Assembly: GCA_029975295.1 (NCBI GenBank)
Contig: JARKPK010000095.1
Span: 1-38,591 of the forward strand
Origin: Thermoguttaceae bacterium
GTDB lineage: Bacteria; Planctomycetota; Planctomycetia; Pirellulales; Thermoguttaceae
Direction of reading: 5' to 3'
Length of the DNA: 38,591 nt
Positions 31,009 through 33,280 of this stretch are shown here, in pieces (within the stretch, counting starts at the first letter, position 1; every line of letters starts with the position of its first letter). The translations under genes were made by a program, and so were the position numbers. The notes beneath the pieces are model-generated. The model made no database searches. It was not told the DNA's origin and saw nothing but the letters and a program-made list of their open reading frames with translations.

Positions 31009-32025
31009 TTACGGCAAGAGTTTGCCGACGGCGTCGGCCACCTTGCGGCAAAGCGTCATCATCTCTTCGAACTGGGTGAAATTGAGCGATTGGTAGCCGT
31101 CGCTCAGCGCGTGTTCGGGATCGGGGTGGACCTCGACGATCAGCCCGTCGGCGCCCGACGCCACGGCCGCAGCCGCCATTCGCGCCACCAGCGGCGTGTG
31201 GCCCGTGCCGTGGCTGGGATCGACGACCACGGGCAGATGGGTCCGCTCGTGAAGCCAAGGCACCGTGGCCAACGGCAACGTGAAGCGCGTGTGCGTTTCG
31301 AAGGTGCGAATGCCGCGTTCGCAGAGCATCACTTGTTTGTTGCCCGCATTGAGTATGTACTCGGCCGCCAGCAGCAGTTCTTCGAGCGTGGCGCTGGGCC
31401 CCCGTTTGAGCAGCACGGGCTTGTCGGTTTCGCCCACCTTTTCCAGCAGCCGGTAGTTCTGCATGTTCCGCGCGCCGATCTGGAGCACGTCGGCGTAGCG
31501 GGCCACCAGGGTTACGTCGGTTTCGGAAAGGACTTCGGTGACCACCGCCAGCCCGGTTTCCTCGCGCGCGGCGGCAAGGATTTCCAGGCCGCGCTCTTTC
31601 AGGCCTTGGAAGCTGTAGGGGCTGGTCCGCGGCTTGAACGCCCCGCCGCGCAGCGCCGTGGCGCCGGCAGCCTTGATGGCCCGAGCCGTGGCGATCGTTT
31701 GCTCTTCGTTCTCGATCGAGCACGGACCGGCGATCACGCCCAAGTAGCAGTTGCCCACCGAAAGCGAACCGGCGCGAACCACCGTCGGCTCGGCCTTCAC
31801 CTCACGGCTGGCCACTTTGTAGGGCGCAAGGATCGGAACCACCTCGGCCACGCCGGGGCCGCTTTCGAGCGATTGCCGCATGTCGTCGCGTTTCTCGCCG
31901 ATGGCCGCAATCACGGTCCGCTCGGTGCCGAAGATCGGATGGGCCTTCAGCCCGAACTCTTCGATCCGGCGGATCATGTGTTGAATCTGTTCGGGCGTGG
32001 CCCCCTTCTTCATCACGACAATCAT
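31009..32025 (-). CDS. aroF: 3-deoxy-7-phosphoheptulonate (DAHP) synthase, class I type beta
   Basis: 338 residues. It catalyses the first shikimate-pathway step, condensing phosphoenolpyruvate and erythrose 4-phosphate in the cytoplasm. The N-terminal 80 residues ([20 protein letters not shown]) form the ferredoxin-like regulatory domain of type-beta enzymes. The barrel has [13 protein letters not shown] (98-110), the substrate loop [20 protein letters not shown] (127-146), [34 protein letters not shown] and [10 protein letters not shown]; the metal ligands Cys, His, Glu and Asp fall in these motifs. The ATG at 32025 is preceded by AAAGGAGCCGAAGGA, so the open frame upstream to 32220 is not coding. 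A leader peptide and terminator lie upstream (32222-32357), indicating transcription attenuation by aromatic amino acids. The likely paralogue-specific symbol (aroF/aroG/aroH) cannot be fixed. Confidence 0.96.
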
Positions 32026-32221
32026 TCCTTCGGCTCCTTTTCGATAATCGGGCGACGCCGCTGCACGGCGCGACGGTTCGCGCGCGATGTCCAACATCGA
32101 TGCGTTGCTTGCGGCTCGGCTCGGGCCGGCCGCGCTCGACGGCGGCAGGGCAATCGCGGTACTCAATGGTATTCTCCCAACGGTGATCGCGAAATGGCGA
32201 TCGAGGTTCCCAACAGCCAAT

Positions 32222-32257
32222 AAAAAAAGCCCCGCGACCGTTCAGGTCTCGGGGCTT
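32222..32257 (-). terminator. Intrinsic terminator (attenuator) in the DAHP synthase leader
   Basis: On the minus strand AAGCCCCGAGACC (32245-32257) pairs with GGTCGCGGGGCTT (12 of 13 positions, one A-G mismatch) around a TGAAC loop, followed directly by a run of seven T. It lies about 200 nt before the DAHP synthase start and well beyond the preceding deacetylase gene, whose stop is 330 bp upstream. Confidence 0.85.
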
Positions 32258-32321
32258 CTGTCCGTTGCGGGTTGATTTCAGCTAGCTACAAACCGCCTCC
32301 GGCCCCTCGACCTGCGGGGGC
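32243..32321 (-). promoter_or_regulatory. Competing pause/antiterminator segments of the aromatic attenuator
   Basis: Reading along the minus strand, segment 1 is GCCCC (32317-32321) and segment 2 is CAGGTCGAGGGGC (32302-32314). Segment 3 is GCCCCGAGACCTG (32243-32255), the terminator's 5' arm. Segments 1 and 2 can form GCCCC/GGGGC. Segments 2 and 3 can form 11 of 13 pairs, with a tandem G-A internal mismatch, and this excludes the terminator. Segment 1 starts at the codon directly after the aromatic run, so a ribosome stalled there would mask it and free segment 2. Confidence 0.75.
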
Positions 32322-32357
32322 AAAATAAAACCAAAAATAGTAAGCGGTGCGCAACAT
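32286..32357 (-). CDS. Aromatic leader peptide for attenuation of DAHP synthase
   Basis: A 23-codon ORF, far below usual calling limits, beginning MLRTAYYFWFYFAPAG and ending in a TAG at 32286-32288. Codons 6-12 are TAC TAT TTT TGG TTT TAT TTT: seven aromatic residues in a row covering Tyr, Phe and Trp, exactly the three products of the pathway whose first enzyme is encoded downstream. This is how trp, phe and his leader peptides sense charged-tRNA supply. Start at 32357, about 75 nt after the predicted transcription start; the ribosome site is weak (no clear GGAGG). The residues after the aromatic run are Gly/Ala/Arg because that stretch doubles as attenuator segments 1 and 2. I infer function from arrangement; expression is unproven. 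Confidence 0.85.
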   Translation of the reverse strand: MLRTAYYFWFYFAPAGRGAGGGL

Positions 32358-32438
32358 GCCGAAAACGTACGCCGTTCGCTCAGCGTCGGCCGACAAGCAC
32401 CCACTGCCACGGCCGCACCAAAGCGTTTCAATGGCAGT

Positions 32439-32467
32439 ATTATCGTTCGTACAACGGAAAAAAGCAA
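32439..32467 (-). promoter_or_regulatory. Sigma70-like promoter of the leader peptide-DAHP synthase transcript
   Basis: On the minus strand: TTGCTT (32462-32467), a 17-bp spacer, then GATAAT (32439-32444, five of six consensus bases). Transcription would start near 32432, 75 nt before the leader peptide ATG. The -35 box is weak. Confidence 0.6.
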
Positions 32468-32590
32468 GTCATTTCCGGTTTTCACCCGGATTTCACCATT
32501 GTTGAGCTACGGTTGGCGTCGCTCGGTCGAGATCGGACACTCGCGAAAGCCCGCGTTTGCGCGGCGGCTGCATTGGGCGCACGTTGCGGT

Positions 32591-33280
32591 TCATCGCAGT
32601 CCGCGCCAACTGGAGAGCCCCACGGTCTCGCGGCTGTAGAAGGCTTCGCCATAACGGGTTCCGATGGCCCACCCCAACGTGCCCGCCTGCTCGCGCAAGC
32701 GGTCGATCACCGTCGGCTCGCCGGCCGGCCGCCCCTCGATGAACTGGCTGGCATAGCACTCGAGGGCGGCCTGCTTTCGCGGCCAGTAGTCGCTAATGTC
32801 GACGATGAATGCCGGGGGCGGCAGCACCCGCAAGTGAACGCACAGGTAGTACCAAATGCGCTCCGGGTAGTGCGGTTGGCCGGGCAAGTCGGTTTTGGTG
32901 AGCTTGGCCCAGAATCGGGCCGCCTCGGTTAATTCGGTGGCGGCCGTGTGGTCGGGATGCGCGTCGTGCCAATACGGGGCAAAGAGCCATCGGGGCCGAA
33001 CGCGACGGATGACGCCGGCCAATTCCGCTCGGGCTTCGAGCGTCGGCAGCAGGCTCCGGTTGGGCAGGCCGAGATTCTCGCGCCACGCAAGGCCCAAGGC
33101 CTGCGAGGCGGCCAGCGTCTCGGCGCGGCGGCGCTGAGGAGAGCCGTACGGCGTGGGTTCGCCGTCGGTCAAGTCGAGTACGCCGACGGCCAATCCTTCG
33201 GCCAACATCCGCGCGATCGAGCCGCCCATGCCCAATTCGGCATCGTCCGGATGCGGTGCAATGACAAGCGCATCAAGCAT
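32591..33280 (-). CDS. PIG-L/LmbE family deacetylase, BshB1-like
   Basis: 229 residues from ATG 33280. The zinc-binding signature is VIAPHPDDAELGMGGSIARM (His10, Asp13) with the second motif DAHPDHTAA (His111); LDLTDGEPTPYGSPQRRRAE and WRENLGLPNRSL are typical of BshB1. BshB removes the acetyl group from GlcNAc-malate in bacillithiol synthesis, while other family members act on different N-acetylglucosaminyl lipids or thiols, so the exact substrate is an inference. No bshA or bshC lies nearby. The frame extends upstream to 33367 without a recognisable domain. It stands on the same strand as the DAHP synthase gene, but the promoter and attenuator between them suggest separate transcripts. Confidence 0.88.
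   Translation of the reverse strand: MLDALVIAPHPDDAELGMGGSIARMLAEGLAVGVLDLTDGEPTPYGSPQRRRAETLAASQALGLAWRENLGLPNRSLLPTLEARAELAGVIRRVRPRWLFAPYWHDAHPDHTAATELTEAARFWAKLTKTDLPGQPHYPERIWYYLCVHLRVLPPPAFIVDISDYWPRKQAALECYASQFIEGRPAGEPTVIDRLREQAGTLGWAIGTRYGEAFYSRETVGLSSWRGLR

Follow-up and report, generated by a model that had tools for sequence, protein, structure and literature searches.

Expression of the DAHP synthase (DAHPS) gene described here appears to be governed by ribosome-mediated transcription attenuation, with charged Phe, Tyr and Trp tRNA as the sensed signal and the first common enzyme of aromatic synthesis as the target, a reading to which we assign a probability of roughly 0.9 on the basis of sequence comparison. 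The gene lies in a window (by which we mean the whole stretch of DNA analyzed) of 38,591 nt from a Thermoguttaceae bacterium (GCA_029975295.1, contig JARKPK010000095.1, positions 1 to 38,591). The initial annotation of this window had proposed a DAHP synthase attenuator with a leader peptide carrying all three aromatic amino acids, and this core claim is supported by the 96 cases, among 162 non-duplicate regions upstream of DAHPS, in which a terminator follows an aromatic-run leader, by the joint presence of Phe, Tyr and Trp in 76 of those 96 leaders, and by the co-variation of the 2:3 and 3:4 pairings. Comparison among relatives shows that the leader, its amino-acid content, these two pairings and the link to the DAHPS gene recur.

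In the scheme that we infer for leader translation, stalling, termination, readthrough and the response to each amino acid, a transcript would start upstream of the leader, at the putative promoter, and a ribosome would trail RNA polymerase along the 23 codons of the leader. In a shortage of Phe, Tyr or Trp, the ribosome would stall on one of the seven aromatic codons, leaving segment 2, perhaps extended by segment 2b, to pair with segment 3; once this antiterminator has formed, the terminator would be precluded and DAHP synthase transcribed. The locus carries the features of the attenuator class, namely an aromatic leader ORF, an intrinsic terminator and a mutually exclusive antiterminator that uses the 5' arm of the terminator (Table 1).

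Table 1. Elements of the DAHP synthase locus in the window, and the two further leaders in the same genome (last two rows).
Feature	Position	Strand	Basis or remark
Promoter-like site, TTGCTT-17-GATAAT	32439..32467	(-)	sequence; 8/12 σ70 match
Candidate transcript start	near 32432	(-)	inferred from promoter-like site
Leader ORF, 23 codons, MLRTAYYFWFYFAPAGRGAGGGL, then stop	32286..32357	(-)	sequence; recurrence in relatives
Control codons 6-12, Tyr-Tyr-Phe-Trp-Phe-Tyr-Phe	32322..32342	(-)	7/7 aromatic
Segment 1, GCCCC	32317..32321	(-)	5/5 pairs with GGGGC 32302-32306; could occlude segment 2
Segment 2, CAGGTCGAGGGGC, putative antiterminator 5' strand, within leader ORF	32302..32314	(-)	11/13 pairs with segment 3
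Segment 2b, GCGGTTTG, just 5' of leader stop codon	32289..32296	(-)	7/8 pairs with 32267-32274
Segment 2b', CAACCCGC, partner of 2b, linker ahead of terminator	32267..32274	(-)	pairing
Segment 3, GCCCCGAGACCTG, common to antiterminator and terminator	32243..32255	(-)	pairing both ways
Segment 4, GGTCGCGGGGC, terminator 3' arm	32229..32239	(-)	10/11 pairs with 32245-32255
T7 tract of intrinsic terminator	32222..32228	(-)	sequence
Whole intrinsic terminator	32222..32258	(-)	between leader ORF and gene
Shine-Dalgarno-like AAAGGAG of DAHP synthase gene	32034..32040	(-)	outside attenuator helices
Type-I DAHP synthase gene, putatively regulated, ATG at 32025	31009..32025	(-)	NCBIfam and Pfam matches
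bshB1-like gene, upstream neighbor	32591-33280	same strand	ends ~330 bases 5' of terminator
Leu leader MIRSLPNCLSLLLLGLGQARA and terminator before leuA (L290 / L113)	contig C6 ~82332-82464	minus	own genome
Ile/Val-rich leader MTPFSAYRCEHTDAAPIGGIVVIIRNVRP (IGGIVVII) and terminator before citramalate-synthase gene (L330 / L114)	contig C82 ~79627-79735	plus	own genome

The ORF, aromatic run, terminator and segments of the initial annotation were all found where it had placed them, on the minus strand, and both its 11/13 pairing of segments 2 and 3 and the 5/5 pairing by which GCCCC could sequester segment 2 were verified in the sequence. A second possible helix, 2b:2b', is nested in 2:3 and was absent from that annotation. 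The identity of the downstream gene is given by NCBIfam matches NF006421 (491 bits, cut-off 335) and TIGR01361 (384 bits, cut-off 268) and by its Pfam domains PF00793 and PF18152, with an N-terminal ferredoxin-like domain. Within the window, the seven-codon aromatic run is the sole run of at least five aromatic codons, and 200 dinucleotide shuffles of the window yielded no run of at least seven and two runs of at least five in total. Synonymous recoding of the leader, with the peptide fixed and codons drawn according to the usage of the window, produced 5000 alternative tails; 11 of them paired as well with segment 3 as the native tail did, and the other 4989 paired less well.

The comparative sample comprised 80 DAHPS relatives from GTDB contigs together with loci from genomes of the window's family, order, class and phylum. 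A leader was called when the last 600 bases before the gene contained an ORF 8-70 codons long in which 5 or more of 8 residues are aromatic, and a terminator when a hairpin with an energy below -12 kcal/mol, followed by a T-rich tail, lay 15-110 bases past the leader ORF; both sets of criteria were fixed after the first loci had been looked at. The 162 non-duplicate loci remained after six duplicates, two truncated loci and L002, which is a different enzyme, had been removed, and 8 of 68 added loci had been left out because they contained too little of the gene (L147, L152, L159, L162, L181, L182, L184 and L185). The same scan gave no hits on the opposite strand (0/162) or in dinucleotide shuffles (0/486). 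Leader-positive loci amounted to 35 of the 80 GTDB-contig relatives, 24 of 27 family loci including the window, 23 of 25 in one further set (L118-L145) and 14 of 30 in another (L146-L185); outside the window's class, 4 of 16 loci of the phylum carried a leader (L161, L176, L178 and L183). Given these counts by source, the predicted leader is common in the class of the window (Planctomycetia, judged by the names of the relatives) and patchy beyond it.

What recurs in these leaders is amino-acid content. In a stretch of approximately 12 residues about the run, all three aromatic amino acids occur in 76 leaders, Phe and Tyr without Trp in 18, and Phe and Trp without Tyr in 2, with totals of 306 Phe, 188 Tyr and 114 Trp over the 96 leaders. 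Because 86 distinct run strings occur among the 96, it is the content that is kept and not a peptide motif. Codon choice in the control region is marked: the leaders encode Phe by TTT in 235 cases and by TTC in 68, whereas the DAHPS genes downstream contain 82 TTT and 420 TTC.

The leader-negative loci, searched over upstream flanks of 540-2000 bases, include 59 of the 162 that score below 4/8 aromatic codons with a terminator, while 7 more score exactly 4, all of them within the 80 GTDB-contig relatives. Among the 59, a terminator-like hairpin was present in eight and a leader-like ORF in eight, with L179 possessing both in the wrong arrangement. Many leader-negative loci are more distant DAHPS copies, 57-63% identical. 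By eye, about 12 of them display a similar-ended upstream ORF (LEGITKNQSFGL or near) that reaches the DAHPS start or stops less than 150 bases from it (L011, L024, L028, L032, L037, L045, L046, L050, L062 and L065, with the more diverged L063 and L064). The gene therefore probably sits in an operon at these loci, which suggests that it has moved into one.

Pairing was evaluated in 95 of the 96 called leaders, those with a linker of 40-95 bases, by comparing the summed pairing of cognate segments with that of segments swapped among leaders. The cognate sum for 2:3 was -1564 against a permuted mean of -1278 (sd 24; z -12.1), and for 3:4 it was -2192 against -1344 (sd 32; z -26.5). Corresponding values were -878 against -798 (sd 21) for 1:2, with 4 of 20,000 permutations as good, and -776 against -638 (sd 22) for 2b and the linker, with none of 20,000 as good. 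Because relatives inflate permutation tests, the analysis was rerun on 23 non-redundant leaders less than 60% identical, a set in which the effect of shared ancestry is reduced, though not fully removed. In this set, 2:3 (z -5.6) and 3:4 (z -13.7) were each matched by 0 of 50,000 permutations, 1:2 (z -1.4) by 3893 of 50,000, and 2b:linker (z -1.7) by 2281 of 50,000. The 1:2 hairpin was hardly more stable than shuffled sequence, with a mean z of -0.17 over 95 leaders.

In an alignment of 33 close relatives (A1), 85.8% of 2:3 cells pair, versus 18-54% after a shift of 1-3 columns. Pairs of 2:3 changed on both sides numbered 5 in A1, not above the slid controls (2-6), and the 2:3 covariation score was reached by 12 of 500 shuffles. 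In the same alignment, 3:4 pairs at 96.0% and 1:2 at 81.8%, and the joint covariation score was reached by 0 of 500 shuffles. Far from the window, near-perfect complementarity is maintained with other letters in L060, L086 and L073 (the last with a 4/8 leader score); these examples come from 65 loci with a leader score of at least 4/8, after exclusion by hand of L002, L055, L061, L077 and L078.

On this comparison, the predicted 2:3 antiterminator and 3:4 terminator pairings co-vary, also among the 23 non-redundant leaders, and we propose that segment 2b is an extension of the antiterminator. The initial annotation had invoked the full 1:2/2:3/3:4 logic; its 2:3 and 3:4 parts hold (0/50,000 each), while the putative 1:2 protector hairpin is weakly supported, and the notion that it is strongly selected was dropped in view of the non-redundant set (3893 of 50,000 permutations). 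The aromatic run, both of the co-varying pairings and the T-tract, whose recurrence in related planctomycetes had been named beforehand as the check on the proposal, do recur there.

The expected consequences of ribosome position were modeled by folding, in 94 leaders, the exposed RNA up to segment 3, counting at least 5 pairs of segment 3 with the segment 1-2 region as a 2:3-type pairing. The leading edge of a ribosome was placed 16 bases beyond the first base of the P site. For a ribosome whose A site is on the last aromatic codon, 82 of the 94 leaders were predicted to form 2:3-type pairing; for one that has reached the stop codon, 1 of the 94 was. In the window, a ribosome on any one of the seven codons gives folds with 8 or 9 such pairs; the number is 9 without a ribosome and 0 with one at the stop. 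Without a ribosome, 73 of the 94 leaders fold 2:3 while segment 4 has yet to be transcribed, and for this reason a strong protector role for segment 1 is disfavored.

As the attenuation reading rests on sequence comparison, we considered that the same parts might serve another mechanism, with Rho or translation of the gene under the control of the ORF, or with the RNA acting as receptor for a metabolite or protein. This would accommodate a box, CCGGAGGnGGT, that lies ahead of the leader stop (32292-32302 in the window) and recurs in relatives with fixed third codon bases, its conservation exceeding the needs of the proposed helices. Set against it are a hairpin with a T-rich tail 26 to 371 bases 5' of the gene start in 95 leaders (the tail being a condition of the call), the position of the gene's own Shine-Dalgarno sequence outside the helices, and the lack of any Rfam family at gathering score at this locus, so that we consider such a mechanism quite unlikely. 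A riboswitch or T-box was rejected because none of the Rfam families scored at its gathering threshold in the leader; for the T-box specifically, there was no match at gathering score in the window, nor any among 15 matches up to E = 10 in 31900-32600. It is a speculation that the CCGGAGGnGGT box pauses the terminating ribosome through the anti-Shine-Dalgarno sequence.

The sequence after the aromatic run further distinguishes selection on RNA from selection on peptide. Synonymous recoding of 91 leaders placed 46 at p<0.05 and 35 at p<0.01. Among 29 leaders of equal length, the successive Gly codons are GGT in 20 of 24, GGG in 25 of 26, GGA in 24 of 26, then free, then GGT in 18 of 19, and L095 keeps the same RNA in another frame. 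Because the Gly third bases are fixed yet different, and because of the frame change in L095, the RNA after the run, rather than the peptide, is what appears to be conserved. These observations weigh on the idea that stalling is caused by the nascent leader peptide on sensing a free aromatic amino acid, and not by a shortage of charged tRNA. Nascent-chain arrest of this kind has a precedent in TnaC, and many relatives have Pro-Pro-Gly, a hard stretch for ribosomes, after the hydrophobic run. However, a specific arrest peptide is difficult to reconcile with 86 different run strings, with residues after the run that change while the RNA is kept, or with an aromatic content that fits the pathway in the same manner as Leu and Ile/Val fit leuA and cimA, and we therefore regard it as very improbable. 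That the terminator simply belongs to the upstream bshB1-like gene, the aromatic ORF being a chance occurrence and DAHP synthase unregulated, is barely credible: that gene does end on the same strand approximately 330 bases 5' of the terminator, but a bshB1-like neighbor was found at just one of the 96 leader-positive loci and at none of the 59 leader-negative ones (flanks of ~500-2000 bases), the leader and terminator stay with DAHP synthase and are not recovered from shuffles, and the 2:3 co-variation has no reason in a plain terminator.

Returning to the attenuator, the signals for its transcription and translation were examined separately. The promoter-like site claimed in the initial annotation is present, although it is weaker than stated: its 8/12 match to the σ70 consensus is close to the average best score of 7.7 in shuffled upstream regions, and by this consensus alone it is no better than chance. 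A promoter and terminator scan of 32000-32700 reported neither this site nor the terminator. A related pattern, TTGC-N18-20-ANAAT, occurs upstream of 28 of 94 related leaders, versus a mean of 1.3 and a maximum of 4 in shuffles; the pattern was defined post hoc, after inspection of the upstream regions of 15 leaders, and the promoter scores likewise refer to 94 leaders. Shine-Dalgarno-like motifs were not enriched at leader starts (16/96, versus 65/286 control positions), and the case for leader translation consequently comes from the ORF itself. At 13 loci (L006, L010, L019, L021, L022, L091, L120, L121, L123, L124, L126, L127 and L131), the pattern begins only 40-56 bases 5' of the aromatic run, and the leader transcripts there may therefore be nearly leaderless, which fits the lack of Shine-Dalgarno enrichment.

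To look beyond DAHPS loci, a covariance model (R1) was built on alignment A1. In the 5.0 Mb genome to which the window belongs, R1 gave one strong match, the DAHPS leader itself (4.8e-20), and, at E up to 0.001, it matched 37 of the 119 family genomes and 111 of the 196 in the order sample, with some matches at other genes. Of twenty secondary matches, chosen by eye from a longer list, 14 precede genes of the 2-isopropylmalate synthase type and 4 precede genes of the citramalate synthase type; one is upstream of another DAHPS gene and one is at a contig end. By eye, the leaders are Leu-rich at L268, L272, L281 and L286 and Ile-rich at L267 and L269. Two weak R1 matches in the window's own genome (E 0.35 and 0.96) correspond to leaders before leuA and the citramalate-synthase gene (Table 1). 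Across loci, and including this genome, a Leu leader with terminator was found at 21 of 30 leuA loci and an Ile/Val leader with terminator at 19 of 29 cimA loci (L332, too near a contig end, being skipped); at a threshold of at least 5/8, the counts are 21 and 13. Controls were empty on the reverse strand (0/30 and 0/29) and in shuffles (0/150 and 0/145), and aromatic leaders were found at none of the 30 leuA and none of the 29 cimA loci. Judged on leader and terminator, the leuA and cimA leaders appear to be of like design to the DAHPS leader.

The other DAHPS gene among these matches, at L270 (G115:C280:800-3200), is a DAHPS-chorismate mutase fusion preceded by an aromatic leader NNFYYSYYRFYWFYTNN and a terminator. 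The fusion gene falls below the curated cut-offs, is clear by domain and differs from the DAHPS of the window; its leader is possibly of independent origin or the result of leader transfer. Two other candidates were discarded. A Trp leader with terminator was found at 0 of 25 trpE-family loci (18 of which pass the family cut-off), with a leader-like ORF lacking a terminator in 6, and an aromatic leader with terminator at 0 of 25 prephenate dehydratase loci, with such an ORF in 2; some flanks end at contig ends.

The distribution of leaders also touches on Gemmata obscuriglobus, in which transcription and translation are described as spatially separate (Gottshall et al. 2014, cited by PMC5287468 and PMC5394234). 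Two of three loci titled Gemmatales or Gemmataceae carry a leader (L060 and L066, both titled Gemmataceae), with a strong predicted 2:3 pairing in L060 (-21.0 kcal/mol) and a weak one in L066 (only -10.1). No leader was found at L059 (Gemmatales) or before the second DAHPS copies in the genomes of L060 and L066, nor before eight distant DAHPS copies in four genomes of one family. As attenuation needs a ribosome close behind RNA polymerase, such leaders would be natural reporters of transcription-translation coupling, and a selected ribosome-mediated attenuator in Gemmataceae would bear on the claimed separation of the two processes.

Taken more broadly, these findings may describe a planctomycete attenuation regulon, class-wide and scattered beyond the class, in which one leader reads three aromatic aminoacyl-tRNAs at the first step, parallel Leu and Ile/Val leaders act at leuA and cimA, an extended antiterminator folds around the leader stop codon, and the leaders, including those of Gemmataceae, report transcription-translation coupling; we give this wider picture even odds. 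If it is true, a large and little-studied group of bacteria controls entry into aromatic synthesis by a single leader with the logic of an OR gate over three tRNAs, similarly built leaders serve the entry genes for leucine and for isoleucine/valine, and planctomycetes gain a predicted starvation response at nucleotide resolution.

The locus matches Rfam Phe_leader (RF01859), a leader-peptide attenuator with Phe codons, over the full model length; at 18.8 bits versus a gathering score of 55 (E = 1.9), it is not a member. The ilvGMEDA leader of E. coli senses several amino acids and is thus a precedent for a multi-amino-acid leader. Together with trpL and pheL, it belongs to the classical attenuator leaders of E. 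coli (PMC1183508, PMC11802643), with which the predicted system shares control codons, alternative antiterminator and terminator structures, and coupling of translation with transcription; trpL and pheL each respond to one end product of a terminal branch, whereas the leader of the window would respond to three branches at the common first step.

In aroR-aroF of Corynebacterium glutamicum, a Phe-Tyr-Phe leader attenuates DAHP synthase (Neshat et al. 2014, via PMC11802643 and PMC4046766). There, too, an aromatic-codon leader ORF precedes a DAHP synthase gene and stalling raises expression; by the descriptions available, it differs in having only Phe-Tyr-Phe, a response to Phe limitation and no Trp codon mentioned, and it belongs to another phylum. 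Attenuation sensing Tyr-tRNA has been proposed for E. coli aroF (Camakaris et al. 1980, cited in PMC2659441 and PMC8632094), and an aroF leader motif has been predicted in Shewanella (PMC2659441). These resemble the window in concerning a DAHP synthase gene and, as described, are set apart by their reliance on one amino acid (Tyr) and by their status as hypothesis or prediction. In Acholeplasma, the uORFC-13-1 motif upstream of aroF, with 24 representatives, has been read as attenuation (PMC8632094); like our locus, it combines a short ORF, a promoter and a terminator-linked motif, but by its description, its U-run codes for at least one Phe and no triple aromatic run is described.

The statement in the initial annotation that no case had been described in Planctomycetes agrees with our literature search, which found no planctomycete amino-acid attenuator within a scope that excluded most subscription journals; 'Rhodopirellula-1' (PMC2864571) is known here from a table row alone, and PMC4833913 gives a count of planctomycete leader ORFs and puts forward reinitiation. 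DAHP synthase attenuation is itself not new, and the mechanism has long been known. What is new is that a leader with all three aromatic amino acids stands at the first common step, and that this leader is spread among planctomycetes.
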